From positions 62,001 to 126,000 of the forward strand of contig CALDSD010000068.1 in the NCBI GenBank assembly GCA_937911325.1: a DNA stretch of 64,000 bases, written 5' to 3'. Below, one piece after another: positions 8,849 to 25,027 of the stretch. Within the stretch, counting starts at the first letter, position 1; each line of letters begins with the position of its first letter. The translations under genes were made by a program, and so were the position numbers. This DNA comes from an uncultured Neomegalonema sp. (lineage in GTDB: Bacteria; Pseudomonadota; Alphaproteobacteria; Rhodobacterales; Rhodobacteraceae). The notes under the pieces are model-generated. The model was given only the letters and a program-made list of their open reading frames with translations. It ran no database searches and was not told the origin of the DNA.

Positions 8849-9816
<968 letters not shown>

Positions 9817-9817
<1 letters not shown>

Positions 9818-10518
9818 TGAGTGAGACCTACGCGCATACGCGGGCTCGGCTCGAAACCTATTTCGACCGTACGGCGGCGGCGGCTTGGGCGCGTCTGACC
9901 TCTGACGCGCCGGTGTCGCGCATTCGTCAGACGGTGCGGGAGGGGCGCGACCAGATGCGCGCGACGCTGCTGAGCCGCTTGCCCGAAGATCTCACAGGCG
10001 CGCGCGTGCTCGACGCGGGCTGCGGCGCGGGGCAGATGGCGATCGAACTCGCCGAGCGCGGCGCCAAGGTCACCGCCGTCGACATCTCGCCAAAGCTGCT
10101 GGACGTGGCGCGGGAGCGGACGCCGGAGACGTTGCGGCCAGCGATCGACTTTGTCGCCGGCGACATGCTCGATCCGGCGCATGGGGGCTTCGACTACGTC
10201 GTCGCAATGGACAGCCTGATCCATTATCGACCTGCGGACATCGCCTCGGTGTTGGCGCGGCTCTCCGAACGTACGCAGCAATCGATCGTCTTCACGGTCG
10301 CGCCGCGCACGCCGTTGCTGACTGCGATGCACACAGCGGGCAAAGCATTTCCCCGCGGCGACCGGTCACCGGCGATTGCGCCGATCAGCACGGGCCGTTT
10401 GAGCCGAGAGCTGATCAAAACACGCGCCGTGGACTGGCGACTTTCGAACGTCCTGCGCGTTGCGCGCGGCTTCTACATCTCGCAGGCGATGGAGCTGAGC
10501 CGGGAGGTGCGCGGATGA
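9817..10518 (+). CDS. bchM: Magnesium-protoporphyrin IX O-methyltransferase
   Basis: SAM-dependent methyltransferase that esterifies the ring C propionate of Mg-protoporphyrin IX, giving the substrate of the AcsF cyclase. It has 233 residues with the class I SAM motif VLDAGCGAGQ at 64-73 and the acidic ribose-binding strand VTAVDIS after it. The ATG at 9817 overlaps the bchL stop (TGATG); a TTG one codon earlier is less likely. It overlaps lhaA by 4 bases. Confidence 0.95.
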
Positions 10519-13913: not shown

Positions 13914-14213
13914 ATGGTGCTGTCGATTTTTAAGCGACGCGAACAAGCGCCGTGCACGGTGGAGGTCTCGCACACATTCGAGAGCCTGCACGCGCATGTG
14001 CGTTTCAACAATGGGGCGGTCATCTACCCGGGCGACGAGGTCTTGGTGCATGGCGAACCTGTTCTGGCCGCCTATGGCGAGGTGATCGCCGTGGATCGTC
14101 TCGCGACGATCACCCGGGCGACCTGGCTTGAGCGCGTCTGGACGCGGCTCACCGGCGATCTCGAATTCATGGAGCTCTGTGAGTTTTCCTTCTCAGAGGA
14201 GGCGCGGCTATGA
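13914..14213 (+). CDS. Small conserved photosynthesis-cluster protein of unknown function
   Basis: A 99-residue soluble protein between puhC and acsF, preceded by AGAGGGAAGAAACG. It has no signal peptide or membrane segment. The core ([45 protein letters not shown]) looks like a small beta domain followed by a helix. The last codon overlaps acsF by 4 bases, so the two are translationally coupled. I recognise it as a gene commonly found at this place in alphaproteobacterial clusters, but I do not know its role. A link to AcsF function or assembly is an inference from the coupling. Confidence 0.8.
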
Positions 14214-15313
14214 GAGACGCCCCGACATCTGGCGCGGAAGTCGCCGCCGAACTGGCCGCTGCGCATCCGCATATGAACGAAACCACGGAAATGGCGCTCG
14301 AGACGACGCTGCTCAATCCGCGGTTCTACACCACCGATTTCGACGAGATGGACCGGATCGACGTCACGCCCGTCCGGCAGGAATGGGACGCGCTGCTGGC
14401 GCAGATGAAGTCGGATCCGAACAAGCGCCACTTCAAAAAGAACGAGGAGTGGGATCAGATCGACTGGGACGGCATGGAGCCAGAGCTCAAGAAAGAGTTC
14501 ATCGACTTCCTCGTCAGCTCGCTGACGGCCGAGTTTTCCGGCTGCGTTCTCTACAAGGAGATGAAGCGCCGCGGGGCCAACCCGGATATCTGTGAGCTCT
14601 TTAGCTACATGTCCCGTGACGAGGCCCGGCACGCCGGCTTCATCAACGACGCGCTGCGCGAGGCGGGCATCGGCGTCAATCTCGGCTTTCTGACGAAAAC
14701 CAAGAAGTACACTTACTTCAAACCGAAGTTCATCTACTACGCGACCTACCTTTCAGAGAAGATCGGCTACGCTCGGTACATCACCATCTACCGGCATCTG
14801 GAGCGCAACCCTGACAAGCGGTTCCATCCGATCTTCAAGTGGTTCAAGGAGTGGTGCAACGACGAGTTCAGCCACGGCGAAGCCTTCGCCCTGCTGATGC
14901 GCACCGACCCGAAACTGACGAGCGGCTGGAACAAGCTGTGGATCCGTTTCTTCCTCGTGGCGGTTTTTGCGACCATGTATGTGCGCGATCATGCGCGACC
15001 GGCCTTCCATAAGGCGCTCGGCGTCGACATCGAATGGTATGACCGCGAGGTGTTGCGGATCACGTCAGAGATCTCGCGCCAGGTCTTCCCGATCGAGCTC
15101 GATCTCGACAACCCGCGCTGGCAAAAAGGTCTCGTCGCGATCGAGCGGGCGTTTGCGGATATGGACGCCGCCCAACGCCGCGGGGGCATCTCCGGCTTCT
15201 TCGGCAAGATGTGGGCCGGCGCGCGCGCGGGCGTCGCCTTCGCTGGGCTGTATCTGATCCCCGTGAAAGACAATGCGCCGCCGATGAGCAGCCGCCTCGA
15301 ACCGGCTTACTGA
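14210..15313 (+). CDS. acsF: Aerobic Mg-protoporphyrin IX monomethyl ester oxidative cyclase
   Basis: Di-iron monooxygenase-type enzyme that closes the isocyclic ring E using oxygen, making divinyl protochlorophyllide. It has 367 residues. The carboxylate and histidine di-iron ligands appear in [32 protein letters not shown] and [13 protein letters not shown]. The ATG at 14210 overlaps the previous gene by 4 bases; a second ATG at 14273 would remove only 21 N-terminal residues, which look unconserved. No bchE (anaerobic cyclase) is seen in the window. Confidence 0.96.
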
Positions 15314-15323
15314 GGGGCTCGAC

Positions 15324-16214
15324 GTGCTGACCAGCGATTGGGATATCCTGGCGAATGGATGGACGGCGGTTCTGATCGCCGTCTTCCTCTGGTGGTTCTC
15401 CACCGGCGTCATTCTGATCGTTGTGAAGCGAGCGGATCGGGCCGACGCCCGCAATCCCGATCGCAGCGCGCATCTGCGTGCGACGCTGTTCGGTCTGCCG
15501 CTGCTCGCCTTAGGGTGGTTCGGCTTTATCCAGACCCTCGACCAGCCAAGCCTGATGGGCGTGTATCTCGGATTTGTGTCCGCGCTGCTGATCTGGGGCT
15601 GGTTTGAACTCGCGTTTCTGTGCGGCGTCATCACCGGGCCAAACATGACCCCCTCGCCGCCGGACGTGCCCGCCTGGGAGCGGTTCGTGCGCGCTTGGGG
15701 CGCCATCGCCTATTCCGAGATGGCTTTGATCGCCACGATGATCGCAGTGATCGCGCTCGCCTGGGACGCGCCAAACGCATTCGGCATGTGGACTTTCGCC
15801 GTCCTGTTCTTTGCGCGGATCAGCGCGAAGTTGAACCTGTACCTCGGCGTGCCAAACGTGAATGTCGACTTTCTGCCAGAGCCGATGCGGCACCTTGAAA
15901 GTCACTTCAAGATTGCGCCGATGAACGCCTTTTTTCCGATCTCCGTCACAGCGTTGAGCTTTGCGGTCGGGTGTTGGATCGAACGCATGCTGGCGCAAGA
16001 TGCGGGCGCGCCGACCGAGATTGGCTTCGCATTGCTCGCCGCTTTGAGCGCGCTCGCGCTTTTGGAACACTGGCTGATGGTGCTGCCTTTGCCAGACGCC
16101 AAACTGTGGAGCTGGCTCTTACCCGCCAGCCGAGACGAGATTTCTCGAGAAGACGCGGATTATACCGCGCGCCTAGAGCACGCATACCTACGGGAGGAAC
16201 GCAATGAATTATGA
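15324..16214 (+). CDS. puhE: PuhE membrane protein of the photosynthesis cluster (DUF3623 family)
   Basis: Integral membrane protein between acsF and hemA, implicated in other species in control of bacteriochlorophyll supply to the reaction centre. It has 296 residues with about seven to eight hydrophobic segments, for example [20 protein letters not shown] and [20 protein letters not shown]. The conserved loop [17 protein letters not shown] is a family marker. The start is a GTG at 15324 behind GAGGGGC. It overlaps hemA by 11 bases. Confidence 0.9.
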
Positions 16215-17424
16215 TCAGCTTTTCGAGGCGCAGCTTGACCAGCTTCGCGACGAAGGCAACTACCGCGTCTTCGCCGACCTGGAGCGGCACTGCGGTTCTT
16301 TCCCGAAGGCGACAAACCGGCATGGGAGCGACGAGGCCGAGCGTCATGTGACGGTCTGGTGCTCGAATGACTATTTGGGCATGGGGCAACACCCGAAGGT
16401 ACTTGAGGCCATGCAGTCGGCTCTCGCCGAATGCGGCGCCGGCGCTGGCGGCACGCGCAACATCTCGGGCACGAACCGGCACCACGTGCTGCTCGAGCGG
16501 GAGTTGGCGGATCTTCATCGGAAGGAAGCCGCGCTGCTGTTCACGTCCGGCTACGTGTCGAACTGGGCGGCGCTGTCGACGCTCGGATCGCGTCTGAAAA
16601 ACTGCGTGATCCTCTCGGATGCGCTCAATCACGCCTCGATGATCGAAGGCATCCGACACTCCCGCGCGGACAAGAAAATCTGGGCGCATAACGACGTCGA
16701 AGACCTGCGGCGAAAGTTGGCGGACTGCGACCCCGACGCGCCGAAGGTGGTGGCGTTCGAGTCGGTGTATTCGATGGACGGCGATATCGCGCCGATCGCC
16801 GAGATATGTGACGTCGCAGACGAGTTCGGCGCAATGACGTATCTCGACGAAGTGCATGCGGTGGGCCTCTATGGACCACGCGGCGGCGGCGTTTCGGAAC
16901 GCGACGGCGTGGCCGACCGGGTGACCCTGATCGAAGGCACGCTCGGCAAGGCCTATGGCGTCATGGGCGGCTATATCACCGGCTCGGCGGCGCTGTGCGA
17001 TTTCATTCGCAGTTTCGCCAGCGGCTTCATCTTCACGACGGCTTTGCCGCCGGCGGTGGCGGCGGGGGCGGCGGCCTCGATCCGGCATCTCAAGGAAAGC
17101 CAGCTTGAGCGCGCCCGCCAACGGCGTCAGGTGGCGCGGCTGCGCGAGCGGCTGGACGCTGTCGGCATCCCACATCTGCCGAACCCCAGTCACATCGTGC
17201 CGGTCATGATCAAGGATCCGGTGAAGTGCAAGATGATCAGCGACATCCTGATGGACAACTTCGCGATCTATGTGCAGCCGATCAACTATCCGACGGTGCC
17301 AAAGGGAACCGAGAGACTGCGCCTGACCCCGTCGCCGTTGCATTCGGATGCTGAGATCGACCGCATGGTCGACGCGCTGAGCCAGCTATGGGCGCAATGC
17401 GCGCTGTCCCGCGCCGTCGCCTGA
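16204..17424 (+). CDS. hemA: 5-aminolevulinate synthase
   Basis: PLP enzyme that condenses glycine and succinyl-CoA, the first step of tetrapyrrole synthesis in alphaproteobacteria. It has 406 residues. The PLP lysine is in [14 protein letters not shown], the aspartate is in [12 protein letters not shown], and the glycine-rich substrate segment is [33 protein letters not shown] precedes the ATG and the gene overlaps puhE by 11 bases, so precursor supply is coupled to the cluster. This is the last gene of the rightward run. Confidence 0.97.
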
Positions 17425-18482: not shown

Positions 18483-18974
18483 TCAGCTGGACGCGGGGCT
18501 GCGCAGGAAGAGCCGTGCGAAGAGACCGCGTTTTCGGGGGGAGCGAGTTTTGTCCGGCCCAAAGCCGACGATGACGCGGTTCTGTCCTGGCAGCCGGTCA
18601 TAGCGCCACTCGTCCGCGAGTTCCCTGATCAGAAAGAGCCCAAGACCTCCGATCTCACGATCCTCGAGCGTTGCGTCAACGTCAGGTTGCGGCGCGTCTT
18701 CGAACGGGTTGAAGCTCGGAGCGCCATCGGAAAAACTCAACAGCACCCTGCCATCGCCGGCGGGTCTGAGCGCAGCGCGGATCCATCCATTGGGATTGTT
18801 GCGGTAGCCGTGCCGAATGGCGTTGGTCGACAACTCCTCGACAGCTAGATGCACATGGTGACGGGTGACCGGGTCCAGATCATAAGCGTCTGCAAACCTA
18901 TCGACCAAGTCGACAAGCTTTTCGAACTCCGAGAGATCGCTTGAGAGCGTTAACGAGTGGTCACGTCTCAGCAT
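18483..18974 (-). CDS. RsbW/SpoIIAB-like serine kinase or anti-sigma factor
   Basis: GHKL-fold ATP-binding protein of 163 residues, the kinase arm of a partner-switching module. The N-box is HLAVEELSTNAIRHGY, the G1 box is SFSDGAPSFNP and the G2 box is GGLGLFLIREL, all intact, so ATP binding and phosphorylation of a STAS partner are expected. The C-terminal tail is basic (SPRKRGLFARLFLR), beyond the usual RsbW end. It is the last gene of a leftward operon after a STAS protein (26-base gap). No sigma factor gene is adjacent, so its output target is unknown. Confidence 0.88.
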   Translation of the reverse strand: MLRRDHSLTLSSDLSEFEKLVDLVDRFADAYDLDPVTRHHVHLAVEELSTNAIRHGYRNNPNGWIRAALRPAGDGRVLLSFSDGAPSFNPFEDAPQPDVDATLEDREIGGLGLFLIRELADEWRYDRLPGQNRVIVGFGPDKTRSPRKRGLFARLFLRSPASS

Positions 18975-19000
18975 GTCATCCCGTCTACTCTCCCCGTGTT

Positions 19001-19339
19001 CTAGCCGACCCCAAGAGCTTCATCCAACGTATCCGAGATTGCGATGATCTTTCCAAAACCGCTCACCACAAAGACGTTCTTGATCGTGTCGCTGAGGCCA
19101 AAGATCCCAAAGCTCTTGTCGTCGCCGCTCAATTGTTTTGCGGCTTTCAACATTACGCGTAATCCATAACTAGAAATGTAATCGATTTGATTAAAGTCGA
19201 TTAGGACGTCTTTGGCGCCTGAATCGATCCGGTCGAAAAGCGAGGTCTCAAATTCCTTCGCTGTAACCGTGTCCAGTCGGCCATTGGGCGCAAAAACCGT
19301 CCGTCCGGCTTCCTCCCGTTCCTCGACGGAAAAACTCAT
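19001..19339 (-). CDS. STAS-domain anti-sigma factor antagonist
   Basis: A 112-residue SpoIIAA/RsbV-like protein. The conserved switch segment IDYISSYGLRVMLKAA carries the phosphorylatable serine at the usual place (aspartate or asparagine followed by the DYISS loop). It lies between the PP2C phosphatase and the RsbW-like kinase, which are the expected dephosphorylating and phosphorylating enzymes. The last third (SGFGKIIAISDTLDEAL) matches the family's C-terminal helix. Confidence 0.9.
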   Translation of the reverse strand: MSFSVEEREEAGRTVFAPNGRLDTVTAKEFETSLFDRIDSGAKDVLIDFNQIDYISSYGLRVMLKAAKQLSGDDKSFGIFGLSDTIKNVFVVSGFGKIIAISDTLDEALGVG

Positions 19340-19467
19340 TCAGCCCCAACTCCCCTCATTGCGCGTCAAATGCGACAGCGATCGTCATACGCGCTTCGTC
19401 ACCTCAAGACTAGCAGGCTCTTCGCTGGAGAAAAGCCCGAGAAATCAGCATTTTTTACGCGCAGTGT

Positions 19468-21702
19468 TTAAGTCTTCGGGGGTGAATCGATTGCGAGGGT
19501 TAAGATCGTCACATCATCGCTTTGCGGCGCGCCGTTCACGAAAGCGTCCAGTCGACTTTTCACATGGGCGACGACGCTTGCGCCGTCTCCGTCGATGTCG
19601 CGTTCCTCGAGAACTTCTTGAATACGCTCTAAGCCGTAGAACTCGCCCTCTGGATTCAGCGCTTCGGAGACGCCGTCGGTGAACATCACCATCGTATCGC
19701 CCGGCTCGAGACTAAGGGTGATCACAGGATAGTCGATCTCTTCGAGCACGCCCATCGGCATGCTGCTCTCGCCCTCGATCTGGATCACCGATCCGTCCCG
19801 TCGGCGGAGATAAGGCAGATCGTGCCCCGCGCAGGAGAGCTTCACCTGCAGACTTCGCAGGTCGATCACGCCCGCGAGGCCGGTGAAGAACATCTGCTCG
19901 CGATTGTCGCGGGTGATCTCGTCGTTTGTCTGAACCTGGATCTTCTCGAGATCGCTGGGGTCGCGAAGCACGATGCTCTTCCACAGGCTTTTGGCGAGGG
20001 CCATGAAAAGGCTCGCGGGAACGCCCTTGTCAGAGACGTCGCCGATCGTGAAGAACAGGCGTTCATCCTCGACCAAAAAGTAGTCGTAAAAGTCGCCGCC
20101 AACTTGCAAGGCCGGCTCCATCAGCCCGTGAATGGCGACCCCGTGCTCGGCCGCGATCAGCGGCTCTTTGGGCACCATGCTCATCTGGATCACGCGGGCG
20201 GCGTTCAGTTCGCCTTCGAACCGGGCGCGGGTGACGCGCTCTTCGGCGAGCGCCGCTTCGGCGCGACGCCGTTCGCGGCTGGTTTCGATCAGCGACAAAC
20301 CGAGTGTCGGCAGCGCGTAGACGACAAGCGCAAGCGACGGCGTGGCCGCGTCGAGCAACAGCGCGCCATACCGGAAGAAGAGCAGCGCACCCCCCATCAT
20401 CACCAGCAACGCCGCCCCAAGAGCGATCAGGGAGCGGGTCGGTTTCTGCCGAGGTATGAACCACCCGAAGAGCACTGCGGCGACGATGAAGCCCACGGTC
20501 TCCATCCAGAAGAGGATCACAGGGCGATGCAGGAACGCGCCGGCCAACGCCGCCTCGACGACCTGCATATGCGCTTCGACCCCCGGCAAGGGGGCGGCCG
20601 CGATCGGAAAGGTCTTCCGATCCTCCAACGCCACCGCGGTGGCGCCGATGAAAACGACTTTGCCCGCGACGGCGTTTGGCGCCGCCTCGCCTGAGAGAAT
20701 GTCTGCCGCTGAAACATAGCGTGTGGGATCGTAACGTCCGAAGTAGGGCCAGAACGTCCCGTCTCGCTGCAACGGGATGACGATGCTGGCGCCCTCCGCA
20801 GACATCGAAAGCTGGCGAAATCCGCGCGCATCGACAGTGGCGTCCAACCAAGGGGCGTCGAGCGCGACGCGCAACGCCTCCAAGCTTAGAAACGGGTACA
20901 AAACACCGTCGATCCGTTGCACGGCGGGGGCGCGTCGCAGAACGGCGTCATGCGGCAACCGAACCGAGATCGCGCCATGCCCGGCGGCCGCCGCGTCCAG
21001 TTCCGGACGGTTTCGCAGCAGCTCTGGATAGGTGTCGGCTGGCGGGTCTTTCGTCACCACGTCGCCCTCTTGCGGGGGCGTCAAAAGGATAGGCGGCGCC
21101 TTCAAAGCAATCGGGTCGGTTTGCACCCCTTCGGTGCTGTTCGCGCCTGATACAGCCAAGATGCTGTAGCTGCGCCCCAGCGCTGCGGCGAGCGCCGCAT
21201 CGCTATCGGGCAATTGGCGCAGCGCTGCGGCCGTATCGGGGAACTGGCTCTCAAAGCGTTCCGCCAGATTGCGCGGCGAACTACGGTCCGGCTCGGCGAA
21301 GAGGACGTCGAAGGCGACCGAGGCCGCTCCCGCCTGAACGACCGCATCCAGCAGCCGAGCATGGACGTCTCGCGGCCACGGCCACTGTCCGACCTCTTCG
21401 AGGCTCTTGTCGTCGATGGCCACGATGACGGCCGGGACGGCCGACCGTTCTCGCGGAAAAAGATTGTGTTCGAAGTCGAACCACGCGCGACGCCAAGGCG
21501 GCTCTAACCCGCTTCCCATGAGAACCATCACAAGGGTCAACGCCGCGATCAGCCATGTTCCGCTGGGCGGGCCCTGACGGCGAACGGAGGCGATCGTCTC
21601 CCCCAAAGAGCGCCGCGTTTCGGCGATGAGCTCGCGAGCTTTGCTGCGGAATGCGGCGATGCCGGCCTGAACTGATCCGAGGTCGAAGCGGGGCGCTCGC
21701 AT
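19468..21702 (-). CDS. CHASE2 sensor and PP2C-type (SpoIIE) serine phosphatase
   Basis: Membrane sensor phosphatase that should dephosphorylate the neighbouring STAS proteins. With the ATG at 21702 it has 744 residues: cytoplasmic N-terminus, TM1 at about 48-64, periplasmic CHASE2 domain at about 70-390 (VIVAIDDKSLEEVGQWPWPR, ADILSGEAAP, VFIGATAVALEDRKTFP), three more TM segments at about 396-472, a short coiled coil at 475-505, and a PP2C domain at about 530-742. The metal-binding aspartates are present: Asp537 (GGDFYD), Asp555 (GDVSDKG), Asp676 (FTDGV) and Asp730 (SDDVTIL). A TTG start at 21783 would overlap the preceding STAS gene by 71 bases and is less likely. The ligand sensed is unknown. 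Confidence 0.9.
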   Translation of the reverse strand: MRAPRFDLGSVQAGIAAFRSKARELIAETRRSLGETIASVRRQGPPSGTWLIAALTLVMVLMGSGLEPPWRRAWFDFEHNLFPRERSAVPAVIVAIDDKSLEEVGQWPWPRDVHARLLDAVVQAGAASVAFDVLFAEPDRSSPRNLAERFESQFPDTAAALRQLPDSDAALAAALGRSYSILAVSGANSTEGVQTDPIALKAPPILLTPPQEGDVVTKDPPADTYPELLRNRPELDAAAAGHGAISVRLPHDAVLRRAPAVQRIDGVLYPFLSLEALRVALDAPWLDATVDARGFRQLSMSAEGASIVIPLQRDGTFWPYFGRYDPTRYVSAADILSGEAAPNAVAGKVVFIGATAVALEDRKTFPIAAAPLPGVEAHMQVVEAALAGAFLHRPVILFWMETVGFIVAAVLFGWFIPRQKPTRSLIALGAALLVMMGGALLFFRYGALLLDAATPSLALVVYALPTLGLSLIETSRERRRAEAALAEERVTRARFEGELNAARVIQMSMVPKEPLIAAEHGVAIHGLMEPALQVGGDFYDYFLVEDERLFFTIGDVSDKGVPASLFMALAKSLWKSIVLRDPSDLEKIQVQTNDEITRDNREQMFFTGLAGVIDLRSLQVKLSCAGHDLPYLRRRDGSVIQIEGESSMPMGVLEEIDYPVITLSLEPGDTMVMFTDGVSEALNPEGEFYGLERIQEVLEERDIDGDGASVVAHVKSRLDAFVNGAPQSDDVTILTLAIDSPPKT

Positions 21703-21712
21703 CCGTGCAACG

Positions 21713-22108
21713 CTATGTCGCCGCAGCGTCTCGCCGCGCGCTCGTATCGACAAGAGCGGCGACGGCGTCGCTGGTGTTTTCAAAGACGAGGAAAAGACCG
21801 CCTAGATTGCTGACGTCCAGCACCTCTTGCACCGCTCCTTGCGGCCTGATCAGACAAAGTCTCCCACCCGCTTCGAGCGCCGTTCTCCGAGCCGCAAGCA
21901 GCATTCTCAGCCCGGCGCTCGACATGAAACTGAGCTTTGTGAGATCGATGACGACGCCTTTGTAAAGCGGCGCGCCGCTGTTCAGCGCCTCGTCGATCGA
22001 AGTCTTGAAGGTGTCGACGGTCGTGTGATCCAAGCGCCCCACCAAGGTGATGACCGCGCATTGGCGGACCTCACCGACCGAGAGATCAAGCGCGTTTGAG
22101 GGTGCCAT
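21713..22108 (-). CDS. STAS-domain anti-sigma factor antagonist, first gene of the operon
   Basis: A 131-residue STAS protein with the switch segment LSFMSSAGLRMLLAARR containing the candidate phosphoserine. It opens the leftward operon and is followed after 10 bases by the CHASE2-PP2C phosphatase. The other STAS protein of the operon (19001-19339) is shorter and quite different in sequence, so the two probably serve different partners. Its start lies 243 bases from the divergent ABC-like gene. Confidence 0.88.
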   Translation of the reverse strand: MAPSNALDLSVGEVRQCAVITLVGRLDHTTVDTFKTSIDEALNSGAPLYKGVVIDLTKLSFMSSAGLRMLLAARRTALEAGGRLCLIRPQGAVQEVLDVSNLGGLFLVFENTSDAVAALVDTSARRDAAAT

Positions 22109-22351
22109 AACGTCGAAAATTCGCCCTTCATTCTGCCAGAACCCTAAGACTTTCAGGATGCGAAGCCAGCAGAAAATCGATGAAAAATCTGCGGCTTGGC
22201 GTTACTCAGAGTCGCACAGATCATTAGACCGCCGTGTGGCCGGCGTGGGTTTCATCCAGCGCGGCATGGGTTTAGCATATAACGCCGCTAACCTTCTGCC
22301 AATGTCCATTTGGTTGAAATTAATATCGTTTTCGCTCAAGGAGTGGGGTCT

Positions 22352-25027
22352 ATGGAGCGAAATTTCTTAAAGTTTGTTTGGGAGAGAACCAAGCCCAACC
22401 AGATCTGGGTCTGCGCGATTGTTTTCCTGTCGCTCCCCGTCTATTTCGTTTTGCTGGAAGTCACGAAGCTGATCGTCAACCGCCCGATACAGGGGATCGG
22501 TTACACGCCGGACACCAATCAAACGGTCACCTTCCGCTTTCCCGATCCCACGGGATTACTTGGGGGCGACATCTTTTCCGGAATTGTGACGACCCGAACG
22601 CAAGACCTGTTTCTTCTATGCGCGGCGTTTTTGGCGCTCACCATCGTGAACGGCGTCTTCAAATACTACATCAATACGTACAAAGGCCGCTTGGGCGAGC
22701 GCACGCTGCGCGAGTTTCGTTTGGAGTTGGTCACGCGCGTGCTGCGGTTCCCGCCGGATCGCATGGCGGGTGTGAAGCCTTCCGAGATCTCGACCATGAT
22801 CAAGGACGAGGTCGAGCCGATGGGCGGGATGATCGGCGATGCGTTTGTGCGGCCGATCCTCAGCGGCGGCCTCGCCTTGACGGGGATTTTCTTCATCCTG
22901 TCGCAAAATGTGGCGTTGGGCTGCGTCGCCATCGCGATCATCCTTGTCCAAACGGCTGTGATCCCACGTCTGCGCCGGCAGCTTGTGCGCCTGGCCCGCG
23001 CGCGCCAACTGGCGGCGCGTCGGCTCGCGGGTCGCGTCGGCGAGCTCGTCGAGGGCGCGCGCGAAATCGATGTGGAGAACACGGCGGTCTATGAACGCGC
23101 AGAGATCTCAAACCATCTCTTCAAGATCTTCGGCATCCGCTACGAGATTTACCGCAAGAAGTTTTTGATCAAGTTTCTCAACAACTTGCTGTCCCAGTTG
23201 ACGCCGCTCTTCTTTTACTCGATTGGCGGTTACTTTGCGATCCGAGGGCAGCTCGATGTCGGGCAACTTGTCGCTGTGATCGTCGCCTATCGCGAGATTC
23301 CGACACCGATCCGCGAGTTGATCAGTTGGGATCAGCAACGCGTCGACATCCAGTCGCGATACACTCAAGTCATCGAGCAGTTCGACATTCCGGACCTGAG
23401 ACCCGAAGAAGAGGCGATGGGCTTGGATCTGGGCGGCGGCGCGGCTTTGGAGGGCCCGGTGGTTCTCCGAAAGGCGACTTTAGACGGTCCGCATGGCCGA
23501 TCGCTCAACGCCGTCGATCTCACGGTTCACCCAGAAGAGCGGCTGTTGATCACCGGCGACGTCGAGGATGGCGGCGAGGCGCTTTCGGACTTGTTTACGC
23601 GTCGGCGAAAAGCCGTGGATGGAGAGGTGTTGATCGGCGACGCCCCGCTCAGCCGTGTTTCGCGCGGCGCCAGCAGCCAGTTCTTCGGCTACGCCGGCCC
23701 GCACACTGTCTTGCCCAATCGCTCGATCTTGGAGTGTCTGTTGTCGGGTCTGCGGCAGCCGCCGACGCTGTCGCAATACGGCGTTGAAGACAATCCGATC
23801 GTCGCGACCGAGGACGCGCCGATCGACCTCTCGGCGGATTGGGTCGACTACGCGCGGCTCGGACTTGAAGACGCAGCGGATCTCGAGCAATTCGCGCTGG
23901 AGATCCTCAGGGCGCTCAACTTCTATGACGACGCCTTGCAGTTGGGTTTGGGCGCCCGCATCGCGCCGGACGCGCGCCCAGACCTGGCGTTGGACGTTCT
24001 CCAAGCGCGCGCGCTCATGCGGTTTTGGCTGGAGGAAGAGCAATACTTGGATCTGATCGAGCCATTCGATCGCGATCACTACGCGCATGAAGCGTCAATC
24101 GGTGTGAACCTCACTTTTGGCGCGCCAAAGGAAAGCCGGACTGCGACGGCTCGCTTTATGATGAGGCGATCTATTCGCGAGGTTCTTAAGAGGCGAGGTC
24201 TCCTGCAGCCGCTGTTGGATCTGGGCTGGCGCTCGGCGCAGATCATGACGCGCCGTCTGGATAGCGACGCCTTCTCCAACGCGCCGAGTTCGCGGCTCTT
24301 TACCCAAGAGGATGCGAACACGTTCCGACCGCTCCTGGCCCGCAGTTCGCTCGGCCCGCCGCCGTCTCTCAGTTGGACGGATCAGGTCGACGTCCTCGAC
24401 ATCGCGCTGCGTTACATCGAACCAGAGCACAAGCTGGGGCTTCTGACCGACGACCTTCGCGAGAAGATCCTGGGCGTGCGGTTCAAGCTGGGGTGGGAGT
24501 TCACAGCGACGCTGAGAGAGCGTTTCGAGGCTTTTGATCTGGACAGCTACAATCAGCACGCGACGCTGAGCGAGAACGTTCTCTTTGGCAACATCCGCCA
24601 CGGCGCAGGCGTCGGTCAGGAAGCTGCGCAGGGAGCCAAGGAGGTTCGGGAGTTGATACTCGACACGCTCGAGCGGCTTGGCATGAACGATACGTTGGCG
24701 ATCGCCGGTTTGACGCGTCACGTCGGACCAGGGGGGCGGGCCCTAACGCCAGTGCAAAGGCAAAAACTTGCATTGGCCAAATCAGTCTTGCGCCGACCTC
24801 GGGTGCTTTTGGCTGACCGTGCGCTCGAGGCCCTGGACGTCACAGAGCAGCAGCAGATCTTCACGCAGCTCGACGAGCTGTGGACCGAACGTGGTCAGCG
24901 TCCAGCATTCGTCGTCGTGAGCCGTTCTCCGGATCTGGCCTCTAGCTTCGACCGGGTCATGGACTTGCGCGATCAGAAACTCGTCGCCGCGTCACGCCCA
25001 GCCGAGCGCCCTCAACGCGTCGAATAG
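22352..25027 (+). CDS. ABC-exporter-like protein with degenerate, split nucleotide-binding domain
   Basis: An 891-residue protein with an ABC exporter transmembrane domain (about 1-330; hydrophobic segments near 19-38, 85-100, 168-186, 190-204 and 280-296). The ABC portion is abnormal. The Walker A position (401-413) reads TGDVEDGGEALSD with no GxxGxGK lysine. The signature reads RALTPVQRQ in place of LSGGQ. Walker B is RVLLAD, followed by Arg823 where the catalytic glutamate should be. The H-loop has Ser857-Arg858 instead of histidine. Roughly 270 residues (about 467-733) with no recognised domain separate a first Q-loop-like block (FGYAGPHTVLPNRS) from a second (YNQHATLSENVLFG). The ATG at 22352 follows AAGGAG. 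It is divergent from the partner-switching operon. ATP-driven transport looks unlikely; a structural or regulatory role is an inference. Confidence 0.85.
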   Translation: MERNFLKFVWERTKPNQIWVCAIVFLSLPVYFVLLEVTKLIVNRPIQGIGYTPDTNQTVTFRFPDPTGLLGGDIFSGIVTTRTQDLFLLCAAFLALTIVNGVFKYYINTYKGRLGERTLREFRLELVTRVLRFPPDRMAGVKPSEISTMIKDEVEPMGGMIGDAFVRPILSGGLALTGIFFILSQNVALGCVAIAIILVQTAVIPRLRRQLVRLARARQLAARRLAGRVGELVEGAREIDVENTAVYERAEISNHLFKIFGIRYEIYRKKFLIKFLNNLLSQLTPLFFYSIGGYFAIRGQLDVGQLVAVIVAYREIPTPIRELISWDQQRVDIQSRYTQVIEQFDIPDLRPEEEAMGLDLGGGAALEGPVVLRKATLDGPHGRSLNAVDLTVHPEERLLITGDVEDGGEALSDLFTRRRKAVDGEVLIGDAPLSRVSRGASSQFFGYAGPHTVLPNRSILECLLSGLRQPPTLSQYGVEDNPIVATEDAPIDLSADWVDYARLGLEDAADLEQFALEILRALNFYDDALQLGLGARIAPDARPDLALDVLQARALMRFWLEEEQYLDLIEPFDRDHYAHEASIGVNLTFGAPKESRTATARFMMRRSIREVLKRRGLLQPLLDLGWRSAQIMTRRLDSDAFSNAPSSRLFTQEDANTFRPLLARSSLGPPPSLSWTDQVDVLDIALRYIEPEHKLGLLTDDLREKILGVRFKLGWEFTATLRERFEAFDLDSYNQHATLSENVLFGNIRHGAGVGQEAAQGAKEVRELILDTLERLGMNDTLAIAGLTRHVGPGGRALTPVQRQKLALAKSVLRRPRVLLADRALEALDVTEQQQIFTQLDELWTERGQRPAFVVVSRSPDLASSFDRVMDLRDQKLVAASRPAERPQRVE

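Follow-up and report, generated by a model that had tools for sequence, protein, structure and literature searches.

The pseudo-ABC gene and its product

The gene described here lies in a 64,000-nucleotide stretch of contig CALDSD010000068.1 from an uncultured Neomegalonema sp. (assembly GCA_937911325.1), henceforth referred to as the window, and encodes a homologue of ATP-binding cassette (ABC) exporters with degenerate ATPase motifs, referred to below as the pseudo-ABC protein. Translation of positions 22352–25027 on the forward strand gives one open reading frame (ORF) of 891 amino acids plus stop, with no internal stop codon, and the frame is supported by full-length homologues. The ATG at 22352 is the start found across the family (consensus MExxLFRYIWRHS), and a Shine-Dalgarno-like AAGGAG, read directly from the DNA, is located at 22338–22343 on the same strand, 8 nucleotides 5' of it. 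An earlier reading made from the letters alone, henceforth the sequence-only reading, had described the frame as intact with a good start, and these observations bear it out.

Residues 1–345 (22352–23386, forward strand) were assigned as a transmembrane domain (TMD) of the type IV exporter fold by a Pfam match to PF00664 above the cut-off (41.1 bits), by an AlphaFold2 model, by structural match to TmrAB chain B and by retention of 68 of the 75 conserved TMD columns of the family. The first part of the nucleotide-binding domain (NBD) core, residues 365–446 (23444–23689, forward strand), includes the degenerate Walker A and was placed by motif alignment and structural match; the Pfam NBD profile PF00005 remains sub-threshold at 22.9 bits against a cut-off of 25. 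The model was built with 64 aligned sequences and has a mean predicted local distance difference test (pLDDT) score of 86.0 and a predicted template modelling score of 0.84. Model residues 2–891 aligned with TmrAB chain B (VIA Z 27.4, 451 residues, root-mean-square deviation (rmsd) 6.6), and another heterodimeric exporter, 3qf4 chain A (Z 26.7), was among the best structural matches. The best NBD match for model residues 364–891 was the ComA NBD (3vx4; Z 27.4, 231 residues, rmsd 1.9), an alignment that leaves close to 300 of the 528 residues unaligned. Because the model matches both TmrAB chain B and the ComA NBD, the protein is predicted to have the full fold of a type IV ABC exporter half, into whose NBD close to 300 additional residues are inserted, in agreement with the large insertion that the sequence-only reading had seen splitting this domain.

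The ATPase motifs were located by translation and family alignment, with all coordinates on the forward strand. In the Walker A region, residues 402–409 (G402-D-V-E-D-G407-G408-E409, or GDVEDGGE; 23555–23578), the Lys is replaced by Gly408 and the Ser/Thr by Glu409. The signature reads LTPVQ (residues 798–802, 24743–24757), Arg823 occupies the catalytic Glu position in the Walker B region (residues 817–823, 24800–24820), and Arg858 replaces the H-loop His (24923–24925). The earlier claim that every ATPase motif had been lost was correct for the Lys, signature, Glu and His and went too far for the Walker B Asp (D822), the D-loop Asp (D829), the signature Gln and two Walker A glycines, which are kept.

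The extra residues resemble the NBD itself. A family alignment was split into three units on the forward strand, which profile comparison with hhalign showed to be related: U1, the first Q-loop/helical block (residues 441–566, 23672–24049); U2, the bulk of the insert (residues 567–722, 24050–24517); and U3, the last Q-loop/helical block before the signature (residues 723–816, 24518–24799). Matches were obtained at 91.8% for U1–U2, 98.1% for U2–U3 and 93.0% for U1–U3, compared to 0.1–0.3% for the three units against a TMD block, at most 3.6% in 60 column shuffles per pair, and at most 1.1% for 13 other blocks of the same proteins against U2 and U3. The C-terminal ends of U1 and U2 matched at 98.8% (at most 3.6% in 40 shuffles). 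Since U3 is the block leading into the signature, the repeat was identified as the Q-loop/helical-subdomain block of the NBD, and on these profiles the insert consists of tandem copies of that block. A foreign insertion was rejected on the same comparisons. The second Q-loop-like block of the sequence-only reading was real but understated, and the insert that it had taken for a new segment is better described as duplicated NBD material. A further candidate, homology between the end helix of U1 or U2 and the signature helix, was unsupported (11.2% and 1.5%, against shuffles of up to 11.1% and 4.8%).

The insert was also folded alone, giving a pLDDT of 84.9. Seven of the 18 VIA matches listed for this model are ABC-transporter ATPase chains by name (TmrAB, CydDC, three of FtsE, YbbA and FbpC), and an eighth, ATPase Clo1313_2554, is presumably another. 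Seven of these eight align in one narrow stretch, for example FtsE residues 85–156, while CydDC aligns poorly (rmsd 13.3). These ABC helical-subdomain matches, which bear mainly on U2, are weak and were treated as supportive of the duplication.

Conserved motif loss across the family

Pseudo-ABC homologues were identified at E ≤ 1e-60 in 128 of the 385 sampled genomes of the window's class, about a third, with some of the matches partial or at contig ends; 10 of 295 genomes of the window's taxonomic family, its own genome included, pass E ≤ 1e-99. At least 80 loci were found in named genomes, mostly Rhizobiales, rhizobia among them, with other Alphaproteobacteria and one gammaproteobacterium (Plasticicumulans), using patterns drawn from the family that bias this sample to close members. 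The gammaproteobacterial member, in Plasticicumulans lactativorans, has cyclic-nucleotide-binding (CNB) and cyclase-like neighbours and is possibly a case of horizontal transfer. The 142 loci studied comprise the window, 50 chosen stretches, the 80 named loci and 11 further stretches. At least 800 residues are present at 140 of them, and 126 were left at 95% identity as a non-redundant set, in which 16 members carry a C-terminally fused CNB domain and 110 are non-fused. The window protein shares 31–40% identity with 63 other aligned members. Its closest full-length relative found is at about 40%, and a 49% match (L187) is merely a TMD piece at a contig end. What the sequence-only reading had proposed as a new class made of a single protein thus belongs, as a divergent member, to a large family; the one annotated relative examined carries the name "ABC transporter ATP-binding protein".

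Loss of the ATPase motifs is conserved across this family, because none of the 126 non-redundant members keeps all five of the Walker A Lys and Ser/Thr, Walker B Asp, catalytic Glu and H-loop His (K, S/T, D, E and H), and 70 keep none of them. Lys and Ser/Thr are both kept in two members and Glu and His both in 12. Of the 110 non-fused members, 98 have Glu or Asp at Walker A position 8 and 31 retain the Lys; 89 have Asn in place of the Walker B Asp, which 8 keep; at the catalytic position 52 have Arg and 28 Glu. This homologue profile check agrees with the earlier view of a pseudo-ABC protein whose motifs are conserved as lost, and orthologues with intact motifs were absent from the 126 members. 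The 126 members all share eight charged TMD residues (E116, R120, R123, E145, E153, R218, R223 and R263).

Some relatives lack the NBD altogether. Seven open frames of 331–499 residues match the TMD alone (two each in genomes G004 and G000, and one each in G542, G520 and G415), and G003 has another of 413 amino acids. All nine NBD-less ORFs that were aligned keep the first Glu of EVEPxGGF. Two of the relatives, in G000 and G004, adjoin a class III cyclase; no class III cyclase was seen beside the others within the stretches examined. The genome from which the window derives has a fused paralogue as well as NBD-less relatives. One of the latter, a 418-residue exporter-TMD ORF on contig C68 (L191:7347–8603), lies directly upstream of a class III cyclase (9036–10070) whose N-terminal part matches PAS and HNOBA weakly, and the same pair of genes is found in G004 (L194). 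The second, of 331 amino acids, lies on contig C93 (L193:1670–2665), with no partner identified.

The matches to TmrAB chain B and 3qf4 chain A would also fit a degenerate half of a heterodimer that pairs with a competent half-exporter encoded elsewhere. Degenerate subunits of heterodimeric exporters, however, usually keep Walker A, and the Lys and Ser/Thr survive together in just two of the 126 members. In addition, a motif scan of the 142 neighbourhoods returned no canonical half-exporter ORF, its one regular-expression match having a motif order unfit for an exporter, and the existence of NBD-less relatives also argues against a pairing of this kind, which we consider very improbable.

Partner genes of the family and the divergent window copy

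A CNB protein or domain accompanies nearly every family member. Across the 142 loci it is a C-terminal fusion in 16, a separate same-strand gene no more than 700 bp downstream in 120 and farther away in one; three loci end at a contig edge and two have none. The corresponding counts for the 126 non-redundant loci are 16, 106, 1, 1 and 2, giving a fused or closely downstream CNB at 122 of the 125 loci with room for one. The two loci without a CNB are L047 (genome G248) and the window, where none is found within 13.9 kb downstream of the gene. The phosphate-binding Glu and the Arg that we take to be the residues binding the cyclic nucleoside monophosphate (cNMP) were examined in 108 rather than 120 separate CNBs owing to a stricter gene-start rule; the Glu is kept in 104 and the Arg in all 108, and the Arg is also kept in all 16 fused CNBs. 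Cyclase-like genes, detected with a rough family profile, are near 44 of the 126 loci, 41 of them non-fused (of 110) and 3 fused (of 16). L047, which shares the lack of a CNB with the window, is, together with L051, the member richest in canonical ATPase residues (K, D, E and H).

The Lys retained in 31 of the 110 non-fused members, together with the near-canonical residues of L047 and L051, could indicate an unusual working nucleotide switch in which members with a GKE or GKD Walker A still bind nucleotide and the window protein represents a late loss. This seems very doubtful to us, as 70 of the 126 members are without any of the five residues, and yet the CNB partner is the same in nearly all members.

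Glycosyltransferase genes form the second association. Neighbour gene counts, made using rough family profiles on fetched stretches of unequal length, placed GT28-type genes at 80 and GT4-type genes at 89 of the 110 non-fused non-redundant loci. The GT28-type glycosyltransferase of one family locus, L041, was found in 126 of the 385 class genomes. Both it and the ABC gene were present in 122 genomes, the ABC gene alone in 6, the glycosyltransferase alone in 4, and neither in 253. Because relatedness inflates co-occurrence, the count was repeated within the window's taxonomic family with one genome per genus (198 genomes), where both were present in 39, the ABC gene alone in 1, the glycosyltransferase alone in 5, and neither in 153. 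An NBD-less relative served as the ABC query in this search, and its 40 positives include NBD-less and fused forms. The two genes of the 39 pairs lie within 10 kb of each other in 2 genomes, at 10–50 kb in 9, and farther apart or on different contigs in 28; for most pairs the link therefore does not arise from one shared operon. The CHASE2-PP2C neighbour of the window gene was used as a control gene but occurs in 4 of the 198 genomes, too rarely to judge, so the glycosyltransferase co-occurrence stands without a matched control gene. In the window's own genome a glycosyltransferase operon (52% identity) is located on contig C94, with no pseudo-ABC gene or CNB beside it. Its order (L192:5443–14442) is GT28, GT4, GT4, histidine phosphatase, GT28 and PDA, and the divergent position that the pseudo-ABC gene takes in relatives is occupied by an MscS-type channel.

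The sequence-only reading had suggested a membrane scaffold or sensor, which is possible; the co-occurrence with a glycosyltransferase points instead to an envelope-glycan pathway. As a regulatory scaffold or receptor, the protein would move nothing; anchored in the membrane, it would sense lipid or glycan and report the state to the CNB, the cyclase or the glycosyltransferases. Such a role is consistent with the family-wide loss of residues, with CNB adjacency, and with cyclase-like genes near 44 of the 126 loci and beside two NBD-less relatives. The full exporter fold of the TMD with its many invariant residues, and a co-occurrence partner that is a biosynthetic glycosyltransferase, are more easily explained by a substrate to move; neither is decisive, and we regard the scaffold as rather unlikely.

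The window copy itself is an outlier in its NBD. Set against 68 other members (non-redundant at 70%), it has ordinary identity to the family in the TMD, where 18 members are lower, while its five NBD blocks rank 0, 1, 0, 4 and 2 from the bottom. In addition to the 68 of 75 conserved TMD columns, it keeps 29 of the 43 conserved columns of the NBD and insert. Of 83 terminal branches, its own is the longest in the NBD tree and the second longest in the TMD-only tree; these lengths were not taken alone as evidence of rate, since they are partly due to the lack of a sampled close relative. The TMD thus appears better held, while constraint on the NBD seems to have relaxed, perhaps through loss of the CNB. 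The sequence-only reading had seen no sign of decay, which no longer fits an NBD at or near the bottom of family identity and the absence of the CNB partner of nearly all relatives, even if the TMD is ordinary by identity.

It could be that the window copy alone is a decaying orphan paralogue of a family that works elsewhere, an explanation compatible with a functional reading of the family. Its place among the two loci without a CNB, the NBD ranks, the long branches in both trees, and the fused paralogue and NBD-less relatives in the same genome would all agree with decay. The uninterrupted frame of 891 codons, its good ribosome-binding site, the unremarkable TMD identity and the retained columns of both domains do not, and the long branches partly reflect sampling; on balance, decay is on the unlikely side.

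Three genes on the reverse strand, within window positions 18483–22108, form a partner-switching-like set beside the pseudo-ABC gene: an RsbW-like histidine-kinase-type ATPase (18483–18974; NCBIfam and Pfam), a CHASE2-SpoIIE PP2C phosphatase (19468–21783; Pfam), and a STAS-domain anti-sigma antagonist as the divergent neighbour (21713–22108; PF01740 at 66.9 bits, TIGR00377 above cut-off). STAS matches were found near one of the 126 non-redundant loci, the window itself, and the STAS gene is probably not part of the family module. All 4 of the 198 taxonomic-family genomes in which the CHASE2 protein was matched (E ≤ 1e-60) also have a pseudo-ABC relative. ORFs at 14210–17424 resemble an oxygen-dependent cyclase and a 5-aminolevulinate synthase, which we take to be acsF and hemA and which suggest a phototroph. 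A defence system was considered and rejected, the PADLOC matches being generic ABC and cNMP-domain similarities.

Interpretation and comparison with known systems

Our preferred interpretation, to which we assign a probability of roughly 0.5, is that the pseudo-ABC protein serves an envelope-glycan pathway as a flippase or gate whose control comes from cyclic nucleotide rather than from its own ATP hydrolysis. Two exporter-fold TMD copies would probably form the flippase or gate, and the cargo may be an envelope glycan or a lipid-linked intermediate made by the conserved glycosyltransferase set. The family NBD has been stripped of its ATP-hydrolysis residues and rebuilt by duplication of the Q-loop/helical-subdomain block; the most likely product is a platform in the cytoplasm where the cNMP-binding protein docks, such that cyclic nucleotide, and not ATP hydrolysis, would control the TMD. 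Energy, if needed, could come from the substrate or a proton gradient, as in SbmA. In the window copy the CNB partner has been lost, and the NBD appears to be drifting, with the TMD better held. A broader form of this proposal is more tentative: the family may constitute a widespread class of glycan flippases that descend from ABC exporters and are gated by cyclic nucleotide, with its motor disarmed throughout, its helical subdomain triplicated as a docking and gating platform for a cNMP-binding protein, and some branches reduced to a bare TMD beside a class III cyclase.

Several observations weigh against the flippase or gate. GT28-type and GT4-type genes are each near 0 of the 16 fused loci, the phosphate-binding Glu is kept in just 7 of the 16 fused CNBs, and the co-occurrence counts are not phylogenetically independent. 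Motif loss is not uniform, since in L047 and L051 the Ser/Thr is the sole one of the five residues to be replaced; the members that keep the Lys (31 of 110) or both Glu and His (12 of 126) may therefore still bind nucleotide. A heterodimeric partner could be encoded far from the locus. For the insert alone, no Foldseek match was returned at E ≤ 0.001 and the 18 listed VIA matches are all weak (Z 2.0–3.9, the best being 3.9). Neither a CNB nor glycosyltransferases lie beside the window gene, so this copy may have changed role, and the second-longest branch in the TMD-only tree suggests that its TMD may be less ordinary than the identity ranks imply.

A relative on pSymB of S. meliloti may connect the family to a reported phenotype. 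This relative sits with GT28, GT4, CNB, FkbM and LacI genes; in strain 1021 it is split over two overlapping frames (L189:13962–16713), and in RCAM1750 (L190) one annotated gene spans it. SM_b21272, a LacI-family regulator (PMC11387232), has a tag that fits the end of the smb21252–smb21271 region, where nine genes are reported to be needed for the phazolicin-protecting surface polysaccharide PPP (PMC10128002). In the phazolicin screen cyaA, which encodes adenylate cyclase, was likewise depleted, the cyaA mutant itself changing little (PMC10128002), and seven of the nine PPP genes rise under Myxococcus attack (PMC10315480). From the gene order and the LacI tag, the S. meliloti pseudo-ABC locus probably lies in the smb21252–smb21271 region, and we infer that its ABC gene may be one of the nine. 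If the proposed interpretation is true, the protein would be a candidate moving or gating part for a conserved envelope-glycan pathway tied to antimicrobial resistance in S. meliloti (PMC10128002).

No description of the pseudo-ABC family was found in the open-access (CC-licensed) full texts that were searched, and PMC5498481 and PMC7268258 gave nothing on the S. meliloti locus tags. New here are the loss of ATPase residues throughout the family, the duplication of the helical block, the association with a CNB, a glycosyltransferase co-occurrence mostly between unlinked genes, and the relatives that lack an NBD.

Compared to type IV ABC exporters (MsbA, TmrAB, TM287/288 and ComA/PCAT1), the window protein has the same TMD and NBD fold, with full-length Z of about 26–27 and a PF00664 match, but it is without a proper Walker A, signature, catalytic Glu or H-loop, and its helical subdomain is duplicated. 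It scores below the cut-offs of the 25 NCBIfam models listed, for example 95.1 against 602 bits for MsbA, and it differs from the NHLM ABC models in the same manner (65.5–68.5 bits against cut-offs of 709–853). In the cyc_nuc_ocin systems of TIGR03896, which are presumably linked to NHLM exporters, a cNMP-binding protein likewise goes with an ABC exporter and one family CNB matches TIGR03896; that match, however, reaches 51.1 bits against a cut-off of 161.05, and the partners of the pseudo-ABC protein are glycosyltransferases. The PPP cluster is similar in that the GT28, GT4, CNB, FkbM and LacI neighbours of the S. meliloti relative fit smb21252–smb21271, and different in that the passages of PMC10128002 consulted describe neither the ABC protein nor its motif loss.

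A precedent is offered by SbmA, which has an exporter-like TMD without an ATP motor and is driven by a proton gradient (PMC13316013). The NBD-less relatives of the pseudo-ABC family parallel this SbmA/BacA SLiPT arrangement, whereas the window protein still has a complete NBD fold and matches PF00664, with PF06472 at 11.3 bits against a cut-off of 24.4. If the broader form of our interpretation is true, the pseudo-ABC family would represent a second, independent route from an ABC transporter to an ATP-free membrane device besides SbmA/BacA and, if run by cyclic nucleotides instead of ATP, a natural test of the exporter fold without its motor.

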